14,895 nucleotides of DNA from an uncultured Nitrospirota bacterium (GTDB taxonomy: Bacteria; Nitrospinota; Nitrospinia; SZUA-224): NCBI GenBank assembly GCA_913009285.1, contig CAJVYE010000006.1:1-14895 (forward strand). Reading direction: 5' to 3'. Both the position numbers and the translations under genes were made by a program. Shown here one piece after another: positions 2,602-14,895 of this stretch. The notes below the pieces were generated by a model, which worked only from the letters and a program-made list of their open reading frames with translations, ran no database searches and was not told the DNA's origin. How positions within the stretch are numbered: the stretch's first letter is position 1; each line of letters opens with the position of its first letter.

Positions 2602-3177
2602 CTATTTTTTTCCTATCTCCACGCTCTCTATAACAGAATAGACCGCGCCGGTTGGTTTTAGTTGACTCCTCATCAGATTCACCTTTTCGACAGTTATTAT
2701 CTCATCTATCCTCATATCCCTTTCAGACTGAATCAATTTTATGAACTGGTTTTTCCCCTTCAACGATTTTATCCTTCCAAGTGTCAAATGGGGGGTAAAT
2801 CTTCTACCCTCTGGCTGAAAACCTAATTTAAACATATTGTCTTCAATATTCTTATGAAGCAGAGTCAATCTTCCTGATCCATCCTCTAGCCCAAGCCACA
2901 GGACCCTTGGATATCTGATATTCGGAAAGACCCCTATCTCTGTAACATTCAGAGTAAAAGGGAGAATCCCCTTGGCTGATTCAGAAAGATACCTTTTTAT
3001 GTCACTACACTGCTTTTCTGAGATATTACCCAGAAACTTCAAGGTTAAATGGATATTAGACGGTCTCACAAGGCCAATAGATCCCTTCAGGGATCTAAAT
3101 CTATCCTGAATCCCGGATATCTTTTCCTTTAGCGAATTGGGGATATCTATAGCAATAAATGCTCTTATTTCATCCAT
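2602..3177 (-). CDS. thpR: RNA 2',3'-cyclic phosphodiesterase (2H phosphoesterase)
   Basis: A small cytoplasmic 2H-superfamily enzyme (LigT/ThpR family) that opens 2',3'-cyclic phosphates on RNA and can join tRNA halves in vitro in characterised members; the cellular role is unsettled. The 191-residue product begins with the typical RAFIAIDIP strand and has both catalytic motifs, HLTLKFLG (H43) and HLTLGRIK (H130), at the expected spacing of about 87 residues. The ATG at 3175-3177 gives the family N-terminus, though no clear ribosome site precedes it. It lies 43 bp after pgpA and 90 bp before recA on the same strand. In many bacteria cinA lies in this cluster; it is absent here. Family assignment is firm. 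Confidence 0.95.
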   Translation of the reverse strand: MDEIRAFIAIDIPNSLKEKISGIQDRFRSLKGSIGLVRPSNIHLTLKFLGNISEKQCSDIKRYLSESAKGILPFTLNVTEIGVFPNIRYPRVLWLGLEDGSGRLTLLHKNIEDNMFKLGFQPEGRRFTPHLTLGRIKSLKGKNQFIKLIQSERDMRIDEIITVEKVNLMRSQLKPTGAVYSVIESVEIGKK

Positions 3178-3220
3178 AAATTATCAGAACCGCTTTACCT
3201 TGTCAAATAAAATTAACAGT

Positions 3221-3661
3221 TCACAATAGTCTTAAAGATTGTAGTATTAAGTTTGCGAGTATCCCGGCAACTATATCGTCCAGCATCACCCCGAGTCCAC
3301 CATTGATTCTTTCTATCTGTTGAAATGATGGCTTCAGGATATCCAGGAGCCTGAAAAGGAAAAATCCTCCAATTATAAACCATATTCCTTCTGGCAAGAG
3401 AAACATGGTCACCAGGAAACCGACTATCTCATCGATTACAATATAACTGTGGTCCTTCTTATTCAGGATCTTCTCTGCCTCTCCTGAGAGCCATACCCCC
3501 AGAGAAAAGAGAAATATTGTTATTATAAGATAAAATAGGGGGTGAAGTTTACAGAGGAATAGATATAGTATAACACCAACAAGAGATCCAGCAGTTCCAG
3601 GAGCTACCGGGAAATATCCGCTGTATGCCCCTGTAGCAATAAAAATAATAGTTCTTTTCAT
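3221..3661 (-). CDS. pgpA: Phosphatidylglycerophosphatase A
   Basis: An inner-membrane phosphatase that converts phosphatidylglycerophosphate to phosphatidylglycerol. The 146-residue product carries the family landmarks: GYFPVAPGTAGSL near the N-terminus (15-27), the acidic motif IVIDEIVGF (74-82), RLLDILKP (104-111) and GGLGVMLDDIVAGILANL (121-138) with the paired Asp 128-129. Hydrophobic segments at about 25-58 and 79-108 fit a multi-pass membrane protein. Start ATG at 3659-3661 is the only sensible one for the family's N-terminus, although the ribosome site is weak. It appears to be the first gene of the pgpA-thpR-recA-pilD run; no consensus promoter is obvious in the AT-rich sequence upstream. 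Length is slightly short but complete. Confidence 0.94.
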   Translation of the reverse strand: MKRTIIFIATGAYSGYFPVAPGTAGSLVGVILYLFLCKLHPLFYLIITIFLFSLGVWLSGEAEKILNKKDHSYIVIDEIVGFLVTMFLLPEGIWFIIGGFFLFRLLDILKPSFQQIERINGGLGVMLDDIVAGILANLILQSLRLL

Positions 3662-3853
3662 GAAATCTTATTGATAATTGATAGAAATTTTTTTAAACTA
3701 TTAAAACATTAAACCAAAGATCAGGAAAATTGCAACCTTTTTTCTGAATTTGCCTTAAATTGGATATCAGGTAATCCTGTTTAATGGTGGCACGTTGCAG
3801 AAAAGATGGGGGAACAAAATACTCTACATTACTTTTCAGTAGCCTGCATTTTA

Positions 3854-3878
3854 TGCCAAGTTATTTCTGACCCGTCCC
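3854..3878 (+). repeat. 25-bp direct repeat, left copy
   Basis: Starts TGCCAAGTTATTTC and ends GACCCGTCCC. The identical 25 bases occur in the same orientation at 7124-7148. The copies bracket about 3.2 kb holding the nucleotidyltransferase pair and the 695-residue protein gene. It could be a dispersed repeat that happened to seed twice, or the boundary of an inserted segment. Confidence 0.8.
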
Positions 3879-3886
3879 TTAATACA

Positions 3887-3915
3887 TTGACATAAAGGAA
3901 TAATTCCACTATTAT
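3887..3915 (+). promoter_or_regulatory. Sigma70-type promoter for the nucleotidyltransferase pair
   Basis: A perfect -35 box TTGACA (3887-3892), a 17-nt spacer and TATTAT (3910-3915, 5 of 6) give a transcription start near 3922, about 42 nt before the ATG at 3964. It begins 9 bases after the left direct repeat. Confidence 0.7.
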
Positions 3916-3963
3916 TTTTATTATTAATTACCATATTTAATACCATAAAAACAGCATAACTAA

Positions 3964-4527
3964 ATGGACTTCAAATTAGTTCTTAAAACGATCTTAAAAA
4001 AATTCAAGGAGAATGAGATTGACTGTGCTCTGATAGGAGCTTTTGCTTTTCAGATTACAGGTATTTTCAGAGCTACTGAAGATATTGACTTTTTAATCCC
4101 TTATGAAAAAGCAGAAAAGGTTGAAGAAATTATGGAAAGTTTGGCCTATAATGTTGTTCAAATGACAAAAAATTTTTCTCAATACGAATCACCTTTAAAA
4201 ATATTTGGCTATGTCGATTTTTTGCATACCTCAGGAAAATATACAATAGAAATGCTTCAAAACGCTAAAACACACAAAATCATGGATGAAAATATTGAAG
4301 TAAAAGTTATCAGATTAGAGGATATCATAGGATTGAAAGTATTATCTTATACCAATAATCCTGCCCGATATGAAAAAGATGTTAGTGATATAAAAGAGAT
4401 TCTGAGATTACATTTCAATAAAATTACACATCTGGATTTAAGTTCTATAAAAAGATATTTCAAGATATTAAATAAAGAAGACGATTACAAAAAGTTTGTG
4501 GAGGATGTGAAGAATGAAGCTAACTAA
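3964..4527 (+). CDS. MNT-type nucleotidyltransferase-fold protein, putative toxin-antitoxin partner
   Basis: A soluble 187-residue protein with the signature of minimal nucleotidyltransferases: a helix, then ALIGAFAFQITG (22-33, in place of the usual GG/GS turn), the metal-binding pair in ATEDIDFLIP (D40 and D42), a third acidic residue in GYVDFL (D85), and a C-terminal LEDIIGLKVLSYT...RYEKDVSDIKEIL segment (118-147) typical of the family. Such proteins often act as one half of toxin-antitoxin modules (AbiEii-like or MNT groups). The next gene overlaps it by 14 bases, which supports a two-gene module. No clear ribosome site precedes the ATG. The gene is AT-richer than the core block and has its own promoter, consistent with transfer. 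Whether it is toxin or antitoxin cannot be told from the sequence. Confidence 0.75.
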   Translation: MDFKLVLKTILKKFKENEIDCALIGAFAFQITGIFRATEDIDFLIPYEKAEKVEEIMESLAYNVVQMTKNFSQYESPLKIFGYVDFLHTSGKYTIEMLQNAKTHKIMDENIEVKVIRLEDIIGLKVLSYTNNPARYEKDVSDIKEILRLHFNKITHLDLSSIKRYFKILNKEDDYKKFVEDVKNEAN

Positions 4528-4876: not shown

Positions 4877-6964
4877 TTAAACCTTTATCTTACAGTCGTC
4901 TATCAAAATCTTTGCTTTTTTCTGTAATTTAAGAGCAAAGGTATCGCCTTTTTGTAGGCCATTTTCCACATCGTTCAGAATGTCATAATATATATCCCAT
5001 CCCTGTTTTTCTCTTTGATATTTCTCTATTAAGGGATTCGGTTCTTTGACAAGGTTTTGGATTATTTTATATAAACGTTTTGTGCCCATTTGTAAAAGCT
5101 CAAACCCCTCATGGTTTTTTTCTTCCTTATCTTCCACGAAAAATGAGGCAGCCTTCAGTGACAGTCGGCGATAGACCACTGTGAAAGGCATAGGAGAGAC
5201 AAAACACCCTGTGAATGGGTCAATTGTGCTTTTTATCTCATCTAAAGACCAGGGTAGCGCCCGTGCATAATAGGAAAACCACAGGATACGAGCATAATCG
5301 CCAATCAATTTTCCAATATAGGCTGATTTCATCGCTTCCTTTGCGAAAGTCTCTTTGTCATGACGCATAATCAGCCCATCTTTATGGACATATCTCAGAT
5401 TCTTCTGAGGGTCTTTAAAAATTACAGACAATATATAAGCCTGATCTTCTGCTCGTCCTATAAATGTAGGTGTAAAGGGGCGATATTTCCTCAGGCTATC
5501 TACAAGAATACCGCAGGTGCCTCCGGTTACATGAATTCTATGGATACATTGATTTTTACCGTCAAGAGCATCATCTGTGTAACGCAGCATCATCTCTGCC
5601 TCAGTAGAAATGGCCTGCGGGAGGGAGCTGAAGAAAATTAGCTCATCTCCCTTGATTTCGTCTGTTGGGAAACACACATCAGGAGTAAATAAAGAATTGA
5701 CTATATCTCTTTCGTTTACCAGCGCACCTGCTATCATGCCTAATTCTACCTTATTGCCCTGACTGTCAATTCCCTCTGCACCCCAGAGAGGTGTCTTAAG
5801 ATGTTCAAAAGTAGAGGCATCGCTCTGCTCGACTAATTCTCTTTGCGGAAAAACCTGATCCAGATCTATTTTAAAAGTCCCTTTGACTTCAGGGCTAATA
5901 AAAACATGCCAGAATGCTGCAATTGACTTAAGAAAACTGTAATGCCTCCCATACTCTCCATCCACTCCGATAATCTCATGCAATAAGCTATAATCAGCAT
6001 CCCCCATATACCTTTTTGCGGCCGGAATAAGTATCTCATTTATAAGCCTTGATGTATCGGCCTCGGTAAACATATAGACATTGATGTGCTGAATATTTCT
6101 ACCCTTTTTGAACTCCTCCTCAAGATACTCTTTTGCTATTCTTTGAAGTCCTTCATGAGTTACTGAAACCGAGAGCACACAGTTAAGCCTGGTATCTTTT
6201 TCTATTGTTCCATGCTGCTGTTCAAACTTTACAGCCTCCTCCAGACCCCTTAGTCCATATATGGCCTCGTTATTTTCCGTCTCTACCCCAATCTGAATCG
6301 GGTGGTCATACCAATATAACTGATCTTCTTTGACAATTTGCTTTAACTGCTCTCGAAGGAAAGAATTTATTGGCAGGTCATCAATATCCCTATAATGAGG
6401 TGGTATCGTAAGAAGGATGTTAGATGTAAATAGGATTTCTCTTGCTGTATTTTTAATTGGCAATGGATTTAGCCGGGAAATACTTACTTTTCTTTTTTCA
6501 CGAAGCAAACTGATTTTTTCGTCTTTATTCTCATACAATGAAACCCCTTCCGGGAAAAAAACATTCCAGATATTATTAATCGTTTCCATATGATTAGACC
6601 GATTTTCAGGCTTTATAATCCATGAATATAACTGATTCAATTTTTCTTCAAACTGCTTATCCATAGAGCATATATTAGCAATCTCAGAATAAATGAGTGT
6701 TAATCCATCATTATAAAAGCCTGCCATGTCTTTCCATAGAGTCTGATTTTGCAGGTTGTTTAAATATTGTTCAGCCTGTTCGTATGAAGGATGAGATTTT
6801 CCTGATAACGCAATCAAAAAGGCTGCATTCAGGTTCCTAACAACTGCAGGGGCATTCTCCTCTTCTTGACGAAACTGTTCTGTGATATTGATCTTTGTCA
6901 GAGGCTCTTTGTCATTTTTTGAGCCTATTAAATGCCTCATAATGGTTTGGAATTTTTGTTTCAT
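4877..6964 (-). CDS. Large soluble protein with GT-A glycosyltransferase-like motifs
   Basis: A 695-residue protein without signal peptide or membrane segments. I do not recognise a named family, but the middle carries a pattern expected of GT-A-fold glycosyltransferases: an opening strand ILLTIPPHYRD (183-193), a DxD-type metal motif in FKIDLDQVFP (D367, D369), a GGTCGIL turn (481-487), an acidic GRAEDQAY motif (503-510, E506/D507) like the catalytic ED of GT2-type enzymes, and nearby histidines (H527, H535). The first 170 residues are a helical region with no motif I know; the last 130 are also helical. Its own promoter lies at 7004-7032. It converges with the nucleotidyltransferase pair and sits between the two 25-bp repeats. 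It could glycosylate a cell-surface or soluble acceptor. The fold is an inference from motifs. Confidence 0.55.
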   Translation of the reverse strand: MKQKFQTIMRHLIGSKNDKEPLTKINITEQFRQEEENAPAVVRNLNAAFLIALSGKSHPSYEQAEQYLNNLQNQTLWKDMAGFYNDGLTLIYSEIANICSMDKQFEEKLNQLYSWIIKPENRSNHMETINNIWNVFFPEGVSLYENKDEKISLLREKRKVSISRLNPLPIKNTAREILFTSNILLTIPPHYRDIDDLPINSFLREQLKQIVKEDQLYWYDHPIQIGVETENNEAIYGLRGLEEAVKFEQQHGTIEKDTRLNCVLSVSVTHEGLQRIAKEYLEEEFKKGRNIQHINVYMFTEADTSRLINEILIPAAKRYMGDADYSLLHEIIGVDGEYGRHYSFLKSIAAFWHVFISPEVKGTFKIDLDQVFPQRELVEQSDASTFEHLKTPLWGAEGIDSQGNKVELGMIAGALVNERDIVNSLFTPDVCFPTDEIKGDELIFFSSLPQAISTEAEMMLRYTDDALDGKNQCIHRIHVTGGTCGILVDSLRKYRPFTPTFIGRAEDQAYILSVIFKDPQKNLRYVHKDGLIMRHDKETFAKEAMKSAYIGKLIGDYARILWFSYYARALPWSLDEIKSTIDPFTGCFVSPMPFTVVYRRLSLKAASFFVEDKEEKNHEGFELLQMGTKRLYKIIQNLVKEPNPLIEKYQREKQGWDIYYDILNDVENGLQKGDTFALKLQKKAKILIDDCKIKV

Positions 6965-7196: not shown

Positions 7197-10100
7197 TCAC
7201 CTTAATGCCTGAATGGTCACCTCTGCAAAAGGCAGCACAGTCTCCCAGGGGCTTCCACCCCCATGAGTGTATCTTTCCTTTAGTCTTTTTTTATCAGTGA
7301 AGCCGTGGTCAGAGATGAGGTAAAAGGAGGGAATCTCTCTGAGTATCGGCAGGATACCTGATAAAAATTCTCCCTTTATTGCCAAATACAATGGATACAA
7401 ATCAAGCGTGGAGTTATGAACCTTTGCATCAATAAAATTAAAATGAAGCATCTTTAAATCCTTTTCACTATTTAAGAACCTCTTCAAACCTCTCTTGCCA
7501 ATTCCCCTTTCAGCCCACTTCAATAATGCATAACTATTCCCATTTATATGCCCTTCATTCCCTATCCCAAGGCTCATCCGAAAGCCAAAGGTTGTAGATG
7601 GCGCTGAAATCCTGAAATACTCCTCCTTTACCTTCCAGCCTTCATTTATTAATATCTTTCTTAGCATGAACCAGAGATCATACCTCAATCCATCAAGTAC
7701 GGCCACCACACCTTTAAGCCTTTCCTTCACATATTGTATATCCCTTGCGCCGTCAAATCTATCCTCTCTTTTTTCGTATCTGCTGAGGATGTCACTGTAT
7801 CTTCCTTCAATCTTCTCTATAACCTCATCGCAGACCTTTTCATCATAAACATTATCATACCTTAGCTTCTCAAGAAAACTATTTAACGGCGCAATAACAT
7901 TTGTAAATACCTCAATACCTTTATATCTGTCTTCTTCGCTGATGAGTTGAATTGTATTGAGAATGTCCCTCATTGCCTCATCTTCTGTAGAATTTATTCT
8001 CTCTTCTCCGACCCTTTTTCCCCATAATCTATGAAATATCTCTTCCCTCAACCTCTTTCTAAGGTATCCAATCCTCTCTTTCTCTAAAAAATGAAAAAGT
8101 TCATCCGTTGAAAAGGATGGCCATTTAATCCCTTCAAGGGCATTTAATATATTCCCTTCCTTTAATCTCCCCTCAATCTCCTTTATCTCCTCCTTTAACC
8201 CCTTCTGCTCTCTAACACCCTTTCCAATGCCTATCTCCCTTGACACCCTCTCACCCTGAATGCCATATTTAGCAAGTTCCTCCTTCAAAAGGACAACCCC
8301 TGGATCATCCTTGTCTTTAACCCAGATTATCGTCTCTTCCTCATGCCCGATCCATTTTAAGAACAATTCTTTTATCTCATTGTACTTCAGCCGTCTCCCA
8401 TTAACCATGTCCAGAAAATCCTCGCCCCTTACCTCTTTAATCTTCCACCTGCCCTTTAGCGCATTGTCTATCTCTTCGAGAACTTCATCCGTAAGCATGG
8501 GCAAGAGGAGTGATAGATTTAAATTCTTCAGATTTAAACTCATAAGTGAGGATATATTATTTGCAACCTCTTCCCTTCCGGTATCACTTAAACCCATGAT
8601 GCAGGAATCCAGTTTTTCCCTGCTTTGAGGCATCTGTATTAACCTTAAAAAGTTGAAGATCCCATCTTTGCACATCTGGATAAAATCGGTCTGTACTGTT
8701 GGCGGGTCATCGCCAATCTTGAAACCACAACGGCAGATCGGCTGCACGAATAGTTCATAATTGATGTCCTCTCTGCACGTATCAGGCAGTTTTTCAAGTT
8801 CTCTCTTTATCTCCCACCAGTCCCAATCAAAGGTGATTGAATGTACTATGTTTGATATCTTCCTTAAGGTCTTTCCCTCCTCACTCTCTTCGACCTTTCT
8901 CCTCAACTTGAAGACCGGGGCCTGATAATAGAGATCATGTCCCTCTTTATAGATCTGCGCAAACCTTTCAAATAAATCCTCCAAACCCTCCTTCAAAGGA
9001 TTGAATTCCTCATCAAAGGTATTCAGATAGTTTTCCATACCAGCTAAAAGGATATCTCTTCTCTCCCCAAGCTCTTCAGGAGGTCTCCATGATGGATGGG
9101 TGAGATAGAGATAATATTTGTTTATCAGTTGTAACTCCTCGGAAAAGAATCTATGAACCCTCCCGAGGTAATTAAGCTCGCCTTTAAGATCAGGATTCTC
9201 CTTTAGGTATGAAAGCGCCCTTTCAAGCCCTTCAGTAGGGGATAGGGATAGGCTAAGGGAATTGAAAAAAAGGGATAGCCTGTTCAGGATAGAAAGATCG
9301 ATAGATATCTTCTTGAAAATGGAGTAATCCCTGTATCGATCAATGAAATTGTTGACATCTTCAAGCGACTTTCTCTCCTTCCGCACTATGGCAACCATCT
9401 CCTTCCACATCTCTTTCTGGGTTAAAGGGGTGGGGATATCCTCTACCTCACCCCATATGAATCTGCCGCAATGTATATATCCCAGGAGTTGTGGCGCTAA
9501 TGTCTTCCCGGGTTTAAGCCTTGTGATCTCCCCGGTTACAAGCTGAGAAAGTTCTTTTAATTCAATAAGTTCATCCCTGCTGTAGGAGACAAGGTGGCCT
9601 GACACTATAAAGGCAGATATCAGGAGATTCATCTGTTCATTCCCCATGCCCCATCTACCCTTTTTCAGGGCGATCTTCAGATTCATGAGGTCTTCTTCCT
9701 GGGAGGTCAGATTCAAGATATGGGAGACGAGTTCATTGTCTGCTTCAAGAGAGATAAGAAAGCCTCCTCCCCGCTTCTTTATAATCCCCATAGGTTCTAA
9801 TAAGCCCTTTATATAAGGGGTGAGTCCCTTTGTCTCAGCATCCTCAAGGGTTATCTTCCCTCTCCTTATAAAATGATTGAATAAACTATTTATGTGATGA
9901 GAAGAGAAATAGTCAACCCTTGGCATAATCTGATAGTGGTTTGGATGGAGTTCAGAGAGTGTCTGGTCAAATAGGTGAGAGAGGAGCTTTTCTATCGGCA
10001 GTAATCCTATCTCGCTTAAGTTTCCCTCGCTCATGCCGGAGGCATAAAGGATTTCCCCTTCAAAATAGATATTTGTCATTATCTCCTTAAACCGCACCTC

Positions 10101-11849
10101 ATCTCTCCGGACTTCATTGCTTAGATTCGAAAATTCTTTAAGCAGGTGGTATCTTGCAATGAATTCCTCTACAAAGATTAGTTCTTCATCTGTAAAACCT
10201 CTCGGTATCCAGAAGATTAGAGATGAAAGGAATGGAGATGAAAAGGTCTCCTTGAGTGAGTAGACAAGTCTTTTACCCCCTGAAAAGGGAGAAAGGATTA
10301 TAAAAAAACCATCAAGCCTTTTTTCAATCCCCTCCAGCATCCTCTCCACCTCATCCCTCTTTATGGGCGTGGAAAAAGAGACCAGCACAACACATTCCCT
10401 CAGACTATTCTGCCAGATGAATCTATATCTCTTTCCCTCCTTCACATCCCGCAATGGCAGATAAGAAAGGCTAAGCATATTACATATCTGCAAAAAGAGA
10501 TAGTTTCTATCCTCAAATCTCTCCCTGACTGCCTTTATCTTCCCCTTTATCCTGAGTCCCTCATCCACTCTGGGATCAATATAATAAACCTCTTCATCCC
10601 TGTTTATATACATCTGGTGGGAAACAAGGGGTTCAAGCACCCCCTTCTTTATAAATTCATAGTTTATCTGTGTTGTGAGGGTGCTTATCTTCTTTAATAG
10701 AATCTCTGCCATATCCTTTGCGGTCTTTCTCTTTTCAAAAGGAGATATCTCAGAGAGAATCAGGATCTTTATGGTTGAAAGCCCTGCCTCCCTTTGAGAA
10801 GACTGAGGTAATATCTCTTCAATATGGTCTTTATAGTAATCATATACCACCCTTGCCAGGGGAGAGTACTCCGGAACCTCTCTTATCCTCTCCTCAAAGT
10901 GGTCAAATATGACCTCTGGGGTAATAAGCACATCAGGCGGTCCATCCAGAATCTTCCTGACCTCGCTTAAGACAAAGTGTATGACCCCACGATGCTGCGA
11001 AAATATAGGGGTAAGACCTGATAAATATCTTACTGTAAAGGGGTGGAGGGGATAGGTCTTCCTGAATTCCTCATATTTCAGGGGCAGGTGGGGATAATAC
11101 TTCCTTAACTCAGAAAATATATCCTTTATTACCTCCCCGGTTTCTTCCCTTTTTATTACTATCCTCTGGTCAATAATATCCTCTATATGCGCAGATGTGA
11201 GATTTATCCTGAGTTGGTACCTGTCCTTAATCCTGTTGAATATATTTGATGATATATGGCCTGTCTCCTCAATCCATTCCTGAAGCGATGCAATGATCCA
11301 CAGGCTGTTATTAAATGTAAATTCTCCGAGGAACTGTAAAAATCTTATATCTTCATAAAAGGATGATGACGAGGGCTTTGAACGGAGAAACTCTGAGAGC
11401 TCATCAATTATTATAACCGTGGATATATCGACTATCTCCCTGAAGGTCTCCTCTCTGTTTACAACATTATCCTCATAACCAAAGGAATCAAGAACTATCT
11501 CCTCAAGTGTCTTTGATGCCGGATATTTCACAAGTGAGATCTTTATGACCTTTATATCCCTGGTTTTTATATTTGAATAGTCCTCAAGAAGGGGAATATC
11601 GTTATTCTTAAAGAGGAGATAAAGATATGCTAAAAAATGTGATTTGCCGCTTCCAAAATTTCCTTTTATAAATATCCCGCAGCCCTTATCTTCATTTATC
11701 CTCCTCAGGATAATATGTATGCTCTGCTCTACCTCTCTGGTAAAAACAAAAGAGGATATTATCCCTTCAGGGTCATTATCAGCATCATCAAGCTCTACTA
11801 CCAGCTTGATCTCTGGTATCTCAACAATATCACTCAGTCTACCTGCCAT
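7197..11849 (-). CDS. PglY/DUF6079-like P-loop ATPase fused to a C-terminal PglZ domain (1550 aa)
   Basis: A very large cytoplasmic protein. Residues 1-220 match the opening of PglY/DUF6079-type ATPases of BREX/Pgl phage defence: DIVEIPEIKLVVEL, then Walker A GNFGSGKS (63-70), Walker B VIIIDE (145-150), a sensor-like LWIIASLQ (183-190) and RIKDRY (206-211). The middle, about 230-1370, is helical and charged, with a CRC motif (C1039, C1041) and C1060. Residues 1380-1550 are a PglZ domain of the alkaline-phosphatase superfamily: VLDGLRYD (metal Asp 1386), APSTT (1416-1420, likely nucleophile region), SDHGF (1513-1517) and RYTHGG (1526-1531). In known BREX systems the ATPase and PglZ are separate. 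The start overlaps the TPR gene by 16 bases, with GAGGG 7 nt before the ATG. No methyltransferase is nearby. Family calls are firm; the function as a compact defence or signalling machine is inferred. Confidence 0.85.
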   Translation of the reverse strand: MAGRLSDIVEIPEIKLVVELDDADNDPEGIISSFVFTREVEQSIHIILRRINEDKGCGIFIKGNFGSGKSHFLAYLYLLFKNNDIPLLEDYSNIKTRDIKVIKISLVKYPASKTLEEIVLDSFGYEDNVVNREETFREIVDISTVIIIDELSEFLRSKPSSSSFYEDIRFLQFLGEFTFNNSLWIIASLQEWIEETGHISSNIFNRIKDRYQLRINLTSAHIEDIIDQRIVIKREETGEVIKDIFSELRKYYPHLPLKYEEFRKTYPLHPFTVRYLSGLTPIFSQHRGVIHFVLSEVRKILDGPPDVLITPEVIFDHFEERIREVPEYSPLARVVYDYYKDHIEEILPQSSQREAGLSTIKILILSEISPFEKRKTAKDMAEILLKKISTLTTQINYEFIKKGVLEPLVSHQMYINRDEEVYYIDPRVDEGLRIKGKIKAVRERFEDRNYLFLQICNMLSLSYLPLRDVKEGKRYRFIWQNSLRECVVLVSFSTPIKRDEVERMLEGIEKRLDGFFIILSPFSGGKRLVYSLKETFSSPFLSSLIFWIPRGFTDEELIFVEEFIARYHLLKEFSNLSNEVRRDEVRFKEIMTNIYFEGEILYASGMSEGNLSEIGLLPIEKLLSHLFDQTLSELHPNHYQIMPRVDYFSSHHINSLFNHFIRRGKITLEDAETKGLTPYIKGLLEPMGIIKKRGGGFLISLEADNELVSHILNLTSQEEDLMNLKIALKKGRWGMGNEQMNLLISAFIVSGHLVSYSRDELIELKELSQLVTGEITRLKPGKTLAPQLLGYIHCGRFIWGEVEDIPTPLTQKEMWKEMVAIVRKERKSLEDVNNFIDRYRDYSIFKKISIDLSILNRLSLFFNSLSLSLSPTEGLERALSYLKENPDLKGELNYLGRVHRFFSEELQLINKYYLYLTHPSWRPPEELGERRDILLAGMENYLNTFDEEFNPLKEGLEDLFERFAQIYKEGHDLYYQAPVFKLRRKVEESEEGKTLRKISNIVHSITFDWDWWEIKRELEKLPDTCREDINYELFVQPICRCGFKIGDDPPTVQTDFIQMCKDGIFNFLRLIQMPQSREKLDSCIMGLSDTGREEVANNISSLMSLNLKNLNLSLLLPMLTDEVLEEIDNALKGRWKIKEVRGEDFLDMVNGRRLKYNEIKELFLKWIGHEEETIIWVKDKDDPGVVLLKEELAKYGIQGERVSREIGIGKGVREQKGLKEEIKEIEGRLKEGNILNALEGIKWPSFSTDELFHFLEKERIGYLRKRLREEIFHRLWGKRVGEERINSTEDEAMRDILNTIQLISEEDRYKGIEVFTNVIAPLNSFLEKLRYDNVYDEKVCDEVIEKIEGRYSDILSRYEKREDRFDGARDIQYVKERLKGVVAVLDGLRYDLWFMLRKILINEGWKVKEEYFRISAPSTTFGFRMSLGIGNEGHINGNSYALLKWAERGIGKRGLKRFLNSEKDLKMLHFNFIDAKVHNSTLDLYPLYLAIKGEFLSGILPILREIPSFYLISDHGFTDKKRLKERYTHGGGSPWETVLPFAEVTIQALR

Positions 11850-12769
11850 TTCCTGGCCCTCTTTAAAACCCCATAGAGATGTTTTGCATCAGGATTCAGG
11901 CTCATTGCCTCGAGTATTAATCTTTCTATATTTTCAAAATCGAGTTTTGCTTTAAAAATATTTGAAATTGTTGAATAAAGATAATGGTCATATGGGTCTT
12001 TTAAAAATATATCCTTTAGATAAACCAATGCATTTTCAGGGTCTCTAATTTTATAATATGCATATCCAAGCATCTTCCGGGTAAATTCGTTATCCTTTAA
12101 GGTTAAAAGATACTTATATATTTCTATTGTCCTGTCATATTTTTTTATCTTCTTATAGAGCTCAGCAAGGTAGAGATGAAGGTCATAGTCCTGCGCATAA
12201 TTGGGCAGCGCTTTTATGCCTTCAATTTCCATAATTGCATCTTTAACCTTTTTACCTTTGAATTGTTCCTTATAATATTTATATCTGCTCTCCGGGCCCC
12301 CTTCCTTGCCCCACCCCTCCAAAATACTCTTTAATTCCTTATTATCAGGAAAAATCAATGTCGCCCTTTTTAAAATATCCCGCGCCTTCTCCTTACTGAA
12401 AACCCGGCCTGCAAGTTTGGATAGAAAGATATAAAATTTTTCATCCCCAACCCGCCTCGGGAATATATTACTCTCTATCATATACTCGATATCTTCCTTT
12501 TCCTTTTCCCTCTCAAGGATTGAAAGGTAAGTTCTTAAAAAGAATGAATCACCTTTCAAAAGCTCCATCCTTTCCTCGGCCATTCCCCGCGCCTCTTTTG
12601 TCTTTTTTAATCTATACAGGAGATATACTTCATTTCTGAGAAGGAATAAATTTGTAGGATAAATCGTAAGCGCTTCCCTTGCAATTTCATAAGCCCCCTT
12701 ATAATCTTTGTTTCTCTCATGCTCTATTATCTTTTTCCCATATTCCTTTGCTGTCATATATATTTCCAT
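11834..12769 (-). CDS. TPR-like repeat protein, partner of the ATPase-PglZ protein
   Basis: A 311-residue soluble protein built almost entirely from helical pairs of TPR type. Clear repeats include DYKGAYEIAREALTIYPTN near the N-terminus, then LAELYKKIKKYDRTIEIYKY, LGYAYYKIRDPENALVYLKD and a last one ending EAMSLNPDAKHLYGVL. TPR arrays usually act as protein-binding scaffolds. There is no signal peptide or enzymatic motif. The 3' end overlaps the ATPase-PglZ start by 16 bases, so the two are co-transcribed, probably translated at a fixed ratio, and may form a complex. The ATG at 12769 is used; a second in-frame ATG four codons later (12757) is equally possible and neither has a strong ribosome site. 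A GC-rich inverted repeat lies 46 bases upstream. I see no consensus promoter. Confidence 0.8.
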   Translation of the reverse strand: MEIYMTAKEYGKKIIEHERNKDYKGAYEIAREALTIYPTNLFLLRNEVYLLYRLKKTKEARGMAEERMELLKGDSFFLRTYLSILEREKEKEDIEYMIESNIFPRRVGDEKFYIFLSKLAGRVFSKEKARDILKRATLIFPDNKELKSILEGWGKEGGPESRYKYYKEQFKGKKVKDAIMEIEGIKALPNYAQDYDLHLYLAELYKKIKKYDRTIEIYKYLLTLKDNEFTRKMLGYAYYKIRDPENALVYLKDIFLKDPYDHYLYSTISNIFKAKLDFENIERLILEAMSLNPDAKHLYGVLKRARKWQVD

Positions 12770-13308: not shown

Positions 13309-13403
13309 AATCACCTTAACAATGCTGATTGAACAATCCCCTTTTAATGATTCAATAACGGATTAATTGAAAATAAAGAGATGTTTTGAAGAAGTTAGCG
13401 AAT

Positions 13404-13408
13404 GAGGT
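13404..13408 (+). promoter_or_regulatory. Ribosome binding site deciding the start at 13416
   Basis: GAGGT lies 7 nt ahead of ATG 13416-13418. It favours this start over the in-frame TTG at 13386, which has no such site. Confidence 0.7.
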
Positions 13409-13415
13409 AAATATT

Positions 13416-14773
13416 ATGACACAAAAAATATTGATTGTTGGTGACTGTTTTATTGATGAGAATTGGTTAGTTGCAAAAGGTAATACATACACTAGCTCTC
13501 ACACTGGTGATATTCATTATTTAGGAAAACATAAGAAACTCGATAAGCGGATGATTAGCTTATGTGGAGCCTGGGAAATACTTGAGGTTTTAAGGTTAAA
13601 TATCAGCGATCCTAATAAGGATAAATATTCATTTATTTGTTCTGGTGCATGGAATAAATACGATAATAATATTATTAAATGCTCTCTTTGCCCAAAAAAT
13701 CCTAAAGATAAACTTATGAGTCCATACACTATCACAGGCTTATCAGAACTCAAGCAAGGCGAGGAACATCTTTGTCCTTATAATAATCTGGTATGCGACT
13801 ATGATCCCACATTAATAAATTTGGCAAAAAACGAAGAAACCTCAACCAATAGAATAATTCGTGTTTATGAAGGATCCGGAGGTGGACGACCTCACCTTTT
13901 ATACCGGTTTGACTGGGAACTACCAATTTCAGGATTGGATTATTCTGGGCTTACCACGCATTTAGACGATGATATTAAAGTTATTGTTATCGAAGACCAT
14001 GGTAAGGGTGTTATAAATAAAGATACTATTGAGCATCTTACCACCGCCTTAGGTGATAACCTAGGACAAGTAAAGTGGTACATACGATCTAAGGCAGTTA
14101 ATCCTACATGGATGATAAAATTAAAGGAAAAAGACATAATATCCAGGTTAAAAATAGTTGATTGTAAATTTGCGATTCATAGAAAGGGACCCAGGCGGTG
14201 GAGATTTGGTAAAGAACTTGGACGGGCTTCTCTGGAATTACTTGGGGAGTTAACAGGAGATCAACTATATAACCATGGAAAAAAAATAGAGCCAGAGGTT
14301 GAGGAAAAAGATTTAATTACTGATAGAGTTGCGGTACTATTTGATGACAATATGGCTATAGCAAAAGATAAACGTAAATGTTTTAATCTGTATACTCCCC
14401 CTGGTCCAAAACAACTCATTAATATAGGTCGTACAACAATCTTCTACTCTTCTCTTATCGCTCAGGATTTATTAGATAAACATATGAATGATGATTTTGG
14501 CACTCAATGTCGTAATGCATTGCAATGCGCCTTTGAATGGAGTAAAAATGCCAGCAGGGCCTGGAACATGGAGGAACCCCATTTTTATGGAGACTATTCA
14601 AAAGCTTTAGATGCATTAAATAATACCACTTATTTTAAAGAAGAAACTAAATTCTTTGATTATATACAGTTATGGGATAATTGGAACAAATCATCAACAG
14701 AACAGGGATGTCTTGTAGAAAAAGGTATTAAGAAATTACAAGTTTGGAGGGGAGAAGGTGCGATTGAAGGATA
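13416..14773 (+). CDS. Divergent PfkB/HldE-like protein, 3' end truncated by the contig end
   Basis: From ATG 13416 the visible product has 452 residues. It keeps landmarks of the ribokinase/PfkB fold as seen in HldE (RfaE) kinases: ILIVGDCFIDENW at the N-terminus (5-17), a CGAWEILEVL helix (50-59), TNRIIRVYEG...LLYRFDWELP (144-170, like the TxKxR...RxD strand pair) and VIVIEDHGKGVI (189-200, like the DYGKG loop). The region where kinases have the GAGD anion-hole and catalytic Asp reads NIGRTTIF (336-343), so kinase activity is doubtful. An insertion carries C89xxC92, C120 and C127, a possible zinc site. Bases from 14774 on are adapter, and the stop TAA is completed by the adapter-derived A, so the real 3' end is unknown. 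It has its own promoter and diverges from the TPR/PglZ operon. The function is unknown. Confidence 0.7.
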
Positions 14774-14895
14774 AGATCGGAAGAGCACACGTCTGAACTC
14801 CAGTCACATTCCTTTATCTCGTATGCCGTCTCCTGCTTGAAAAAAAAAATCTTTCATCTTCTAACTCTTACACTCCCACTTCTTACATTCATTCC
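14774..14895 (+). other. Illumina TruSeq adapter, poly-A and noise (not biological)
   Basis: AGATCGGAAGAGC begins at 14774 and continues as the TruSeq indexed adapter to 14839. The index ATTCCTTT (14808-14815) is that of TruSeq index 27. There is one mismatch to the standard adapter at 14832 (C for T). It is followed by ten A (14840-14849) and 46 bases of pyrimidine-rich sequence typical of reading past the fragment end. This part should be trimmed. Confidence 0.97.

Follow-up and report, generated by a model that had tools for sequence, protein, structure and literature searches.

The window analysed here is a stretch of 14,895 nucleotides from an uncultured Nitrospirota bacterium (contig CAJVYE010000006.1 of assembly GCA_913009285.1), and the gene of interest on its minus strand encodes a single protein joining two parts of bacteriophage exclusion (BREX) systems, a BrxC-like ATPase chain and a PglZ domain (Table 1). 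A fusion of a PglY/BrxC-like ATPase with PglZ had been proposed from the letters of the DNA (hereafter the sequence-only reading) and was confirmed, as the two halves share one uninterrupted open frame and the homologues are likewise fused. Sequence comparisons and predicted models established which domains it contains, that its two active sites are intact, that both are under purifying selection and that it is partnered by a tetratricopeptide repeat (TPR) protein. Measured against the nearest relative, which is 82-83% identical and comes from a metagenome-assembled genome of Nitrospinota (L002), the ratio of non-synonymous to synonymous substitution rates (dN/dS) is 0.16 for the whole fusion (0.13 for residues 1-300, 0.15 for 301-1160, 0.28 for 1161-1375 and 0.15 for 1376-1550) and 0.18 for the TPR gene.

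Table 1. Fusion gene, its functional sites and the TPR gene, in positions of the window.
Feature	Residues	Position	Strand	Basis or remark
Fusion gene, 1550 aa		7197..11849	minus	stop 7197-7199; BrxC-like chain, then PglZ linker and catalytic domain
AAA+ ATPase domain of BrxC type	1-300	10950..11849	minus	
Walker A, GNFGSGKS	63-70	11640..11663	minus	motif alignment
Walker B, ending D149-E150	145-150	11400..11417	minus	motif alignment
Place of BrxC arginine fingers (R206, R210)	206-210	11220..11234	minus	alignment
Remaining BrxC-like chain	301-1180	8310..10949	minus	end approximate, about 1170-1180
Conserved cysteines C1025, C1039, C1041 (CxCGF motif)	1025-1041	8727..8777	minus	
Helical linker of PglZ/PorX type	1181-1375	7725..8309	minus	structural matches
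PglZ catalytic domain	1376-1550	7200..7724	minus	
D1386, expected metal ligand	1386	7692..7694	minus	alignment
T1420, place of PglZ T538 / PorX T272	1420	7590..7592	minus	alignment
SDHGF (D1514 and H1515, expected metal ligands)	1513-1517	7299..7313	minus	
RYTHGG (H1529 at place of PglZ H741 / PorX H500)	1526-1531	7257..7274	minus	
TPR protein, 311 aa, usual upstream partner		11834..12769	minus	overlaps fusion gene by 16 bases; TPR_14 E 2.3e-9

The ATPase half had been read as a DUF6079/PglY-type start confined to residues 1-220. The DUF6079 assignment stood, with a Pfam match of 109.6 bits against a cut-off of 23 over residues 4-303, whereas the PglY type did not: NCBIfam models gave an E-value of 4.5e-22 for BrxC against 8.2e-4 for PglY, both below their cut-offs (78.2 bits against a curated 400 for BrxC, NF033441), and the half therefore appears closer to BrxC. 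The start itself is present, but its proposed extent was too short, since alignments indicate that nearly the whole BrxC chain follows; the split BrxC of Halorarius aligned with positions 6-1201 of the family profile, and one of three BREX-3 BrxC proteins aligned as far as residue 1167.

Alignment upheld the Walker A and Walker B motifs noted earlier and, with the arginine fingers, the AAA+ site is complete. Passages of one report name the fingers of BrxC as K326 and R330 (PMC13326643); of the corresponding residues, R210 is invariant in the family, and R206 is invariant in a 20-row alignment and mostly lysine in the consensus of the longer of two length groups (see below). Beyond the ATPase domain, residues 301-1180 are taken, by analogy, to comprise winged helix, alpha+beta and helical parts; the model of this region has a pLDDT of 86.7. 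The three cysteines of this region are identical in every row of the family alignment that reaches them; they are also present in Halorarius BrxC and absent from the three BREX-3 BrxC proteins. The cluster is perhaps a metal site.

At the C-terminus, a PglZ domain with D1386, SDHGF and RYTHGG intact had been predicted, and both alignment and structural matches bore this out. The structural matches start at about residue 1181 for PglZ and about 1260 for PorX, the C-terminal domain proved alkaline-phosphatase-like and not of some other fold, and it matched PorX/PglZ in both fold and sequence profile. The residues expected from the alkaline phosphatase superfamily as metal ligands and as nucleophile are all in place (D1386, T1420, D1474, H1478, D1514, H1515 and H1529), where D1386, D1514 and H1515 are presumed to bind metal as in that superfamily. 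The counterparts of T1420 and H1529 in PglZ and PorX (Table 1) are those given in parts of a study in which PglZ is described as a metal-dependent nuclease inhibited by nucleoside triphosphates (PMC11974810). The Pfam PglZ model (PF08665) scored 11.8 bits on the window's domain, below its cut-off of 25, and matched 35 of 59 family members at E<=1. It was dropped as a detector, as it misses this domain, and searches with it came back empty both in the window's own genome, despite the domain there, and in that of one homologue (L022). A family profile of the PglZ part (A3), which recovers the window's domain and two BREX-3 PglZ proteins, was used instead. No space is left in the PglZ half for the N-terminal region through which type I PglZ contacts BrxB, and the covalent link may thus replace that bridge.

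The homologue search with tabulation of neighbours that the sequence-only reading had suggested was carried out. From 185 confirmed loci 80 were taken, representing 76 distinct ones, or 75 after removal of one (L067) in which no fusion was called. A single TPR family (cluster C1) is encoded upstream on the same strand in 54 of the 75; in 41 of these the gene overlaps or lies within 400 bases, and in the remainder a RecQ gene (10), an SNF2 gene (1) or small open reading frames (ORFs; 2) stand between. In one further locus (L012) it lies immediately downstream. Across 50 loci, similarity among the TPR proteins is correlated with similarity among the fusions (Spearman 0.81; 0 of 999 permutations). 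Seven ORFs outside the cluster matched the TPR profile at E<=0.01. Profile matches on the opposite strand (L005) and more than 5 kb away (L022) were left out of the count, and a match beside the fusion in L065, a thioredoxin-TPR protein, was removed. The compact single-chain machine envisaged earlier is thus right as to the fusion and wrong as to its being alone, given the TPR partner and, in some loci, a helicase.

RecQ-like helicase genes were found in 13 of the 75 loci and SNF2 helicases in five, so that 17 have either and one has both; with at least six changes of RecQ on a quick tree, the helicases look optional. The PADLOC labels DpdF for the RecQ neighbours and DpdE for the SNF2 neighbours were read as helicase-family matches and nothing further. 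These neighbours bear on the proposition that the fusion is a signalling enzyme whose PglZ part, governed by the ATPase and a TPR sensor, breaks down cyclic or linear oligonucleotides in the manner of PorX, the output being regulation and not DNA cutting. The recurring neighbours are helicases and not nucleotide cyclases, and what precedes the PglZ part is BrxC, a DNA-binding AAA+ protein, rather than a receiver domain; we consider such a role unlikely.

The statement that no methyltransferase lies beside the fusion also held. None was found among the window ORFs read, and a methyltransferase-like tetrapeptide occurs in nine of 443 neighbours of at least 200 aa, four of which, in three loci (two in L013, one each in L019 and L060), are likely methyltransferases by size and context. 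There were 370 neighbours of at least 180 aa within 6.5 kb, of which 111 (the nearest 113 minus two) were scanned; neither a methyltransferase nor a HerA/FtsK translocase was among the top 25 of the 137 Pfam families found in them. BrxB/BrxF and BrxA-like proteins were likewise absent from the top 25 Pfam or PADLOC families of these 111, a comparison that may miss short, fast-evolving parts. A complete BREX locus having PglX and PglZ as separate proteins, the setting named beforehand as fatal to a distinct fused system, was not seen around the 75 homologues by neighbour clusters, by the top 25 Pfam families of the 111 of 370 or by the motif scan of the 443.

The methyltransferase and other subunits might instead be encoded elsewhere in the genome and work with the fusion. 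The window's assembly is 58.9% complete, so missing genes may lie outside it, and a BREX-3 PglZ (845 and 849 bits; cut-off 250) is present in each of two genomes whose relatives of the fusion are split and lack PglZ (G101 with L060, G103 with L059). In both, however, this PglZ is on another contig than the split form, beside a helicase gene, and therefore looks like a system of its own. In the window's own genome PF08665 and PF19557 found no second copy, and the PglZ-part profile, which detected those BREX-3 PglZ proteins, matched the fusion alone; over six genomes the same held for L013's, while L022's gave a weak second match. A BREX system dispersed in this way seems improbable, by a small margin the least probable of the alternatives weighed here.

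Counted as clusters at 90% identity, the family is represented by 177 proteins among 7999 scored candidates in one search and 924 among 8000 in a profile search. Two length groups can be distinguished, of about 1490-1570 and about 1640-1840 residues, the longer having on average 59 additional residues after position 1182. Genome G002, which belongs to the same genus as the window's, has a copy encoding exactly the L002 protein, and the window's host is therefore probably a member of Nitrospinota. The six weak matches on plasmids included four that were opened and found to be separate BrxC genes within BREX loci, and a plasmid search with Halorarius BrxC matched only itself. On the tree four split BREX ATPases are separated from the fusion, although long branches meet there and no parent BREX type is therefore claimed. 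Five split forms (L059, L060, P0117, P0119 and P0120) stop close to where the two halves are joined, and all but L059 are BrxC-like chains of 1348-1364 residues without PglZ. No PglZ motif was found on the plus strand of L059, whose contig ends soon after, or of L060. The tree places P0117, P0119 and P0120 among the fusions, so that their split state looks secondary. The fusions of L013, L014, L015 and L016 are closely related to one another and apart from other members, in bins named Marinifilum, Nitrospira and others, which may reflect either transfer or mis-binned contigs. A phage-type integrase gene (3169-4413) sits just upstream of the fusion in L019 and hints that the system may be mobile.

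This distribution also bears on a role in DNA repair or genome maintenance, in which the ATPase would load on DNA and the nuclease cooperate with RecQ or SNF2 helicases. The helicase genes described above and the Orc1/Cdc6 type of the ATPase are in its favour, but helicases occur in few loci (17 of 75), the fusion is patchy (two of 100 related genomes, the window's own included) and the closest split relatives opened sit in BREX loci. Such a complex appears improbable.

The remaining window genes look chromosomal in character. A RecA gene (1441-2511) has relatives 71-76% identical in genomes of the same class, a prepilin peptidase gene is also present, and CoaE, ThpR and PgpA were putatively read from translations. 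The plus strand carries a 187-aa nucleotidyltransferase like AbiEii/DUF2204 (3964-4527; E 6e-7) and a 462-aa protein with a weak RfaE sugar kinase domain match (13386-14774; E 0.003). A 695-aa protein (4877-6964) that falls into no family of Pfam (best E 0.17), NCBIfam or PADLOC is encoded downstream of the fusion and on its strand. It was rejected as a third system gene, having no homologue in 78 compared loci except the own-genome copy. A comparison with an empty site in two congeners (G001 and G002) fell through, as neither this protein nor the window RecA, which matched in all 18 other genomes compared (own included), had a match there.

Taken together, we regard the locus as a two-gene BREX offshoot, in which a TPR protein and a BrxC-PglZ chain attack foreign or abnormal DNA without a methyltransferase, at a probability of roughly 0.55. 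An anti-phage or signalling role is plausible, and nuclease activity and defence are inferred. Several observations weigh against this offshoot. The TPR gene was not seen in 17 of the 75 loci (five of which have less than 1200 bases upstream), its co-variation with the fusion is equally explained by shared descent, no match to the fusion was found in phage records and none in viral contigs, where close relatives alone were sought, and both halves could serve signalling or repair.

Were the locus such an offshoot, the ATPase halves would assemble on DNA as an ATP-dependent ring or filament, like BrxC, whose self-association and DNA binding depend on ATP and which forms a core complex with BrxB and PglZ according to passages of the BrxC report (PMC13326643). 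Each subunit would bring its own PglZ nuclease in cis, an arrangement replacing the BrxC-BrxB-PglZ bridge, with the TPR protein acting as trigger sensor or brake and a RecQ or SNF2 helicase, where present, supplying DNA; release would then lead to metal-dependent cutting of foreign DNA. Lacking a methyl mark, such a system would have to distinguish self from foreign otherwise, candidate cues being a phage protein bound by the TPR protein, DNA structure or a nucleotide level.

A further step, to which we give somewhat less than even odds, would make the family a widespread and undescribed form of immunity, a minimal restricting BREX core in which a self-contained BrxC-PglZ chain with a covalent equivalent of the BrxB bridge, gated by a TPR sensor, cuts foreign DNA without a methyl mark and uses a self/foreign cue that is neither methylation nor phosphorothioation. 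A natural chain with ATPase and nuclease, minus methyltransferase, BrxB bridge and PglZ N-terminal region, suggests that the core can work alone. This bears on how BREX stops phage and on which parts are responsible, and two genes suffice for testing. It also unites a large family in which the standard PglZ model mostly fails to detect the catalytic domain.

The fusion consists of known domains in a combination for which no earlier description was found; no account of it, of its TPR partner or of a BREX core of this kind turned up in the Creative Commons-licensed PubMed Central text searched (without supplements), and a mention in the founding BREX paper is possible. Pfam already labels some homologues with both PF19557 (DUF6079) and PF08665; all of these belong to the fusion family, and the listings give them neither a function nor a system. 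Usable homologue names are hypothetical or 'DUF6079 family', with two rows named EcfA2 transporter. PorX response regulators, which act in type IX secretion signalling, have a receiver domain (by entry names) where the fusion has the BrxC chain. BREX-Related Capture (BRC) systems, as portrayed in portions of the paper describing them, also pair a DUF6079 ATPase with PglZ outside classic BREX, but as separate proteins and with HerA/FtsK, STAND and DUF4007 parts (PMC12839542); in the window the PglZ is fused and not a separate protein beside DUF6079.

The BREX core of types 1 and 3 (BrxC, BrxB/BrxF and PglZ) resembles the fusion in its near-full-length BrxC chain and shares its PglZ linker and catalytic domain, key residues included. 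It has two chains where the fusion has one, and unlike it the fusion has a TPR partner, no PglZ N-terminal region, and neither a methyltransferase nor BrxB/BrxF or BrxL among the regular neighbours seen. The fusion is not filed as a BREX member, because membership calls for separate chains and for a methyltransferase or else phosphorothioation genes, for which no search by name was made. In the BREX-like locus of a Halorarius halobius plasmid (L083), brxC and pglZ are separate genes 2 bases apart, and a gene for an Mre11/SbcD-like phosphoesterase (18172-19476) follows pglZ. That locus also holds a methyltransferase and a BrxA-family gene. Its BrxC has the CxCGF motif in common with the fusion and is matched by the family profile (E 1.4e-91).
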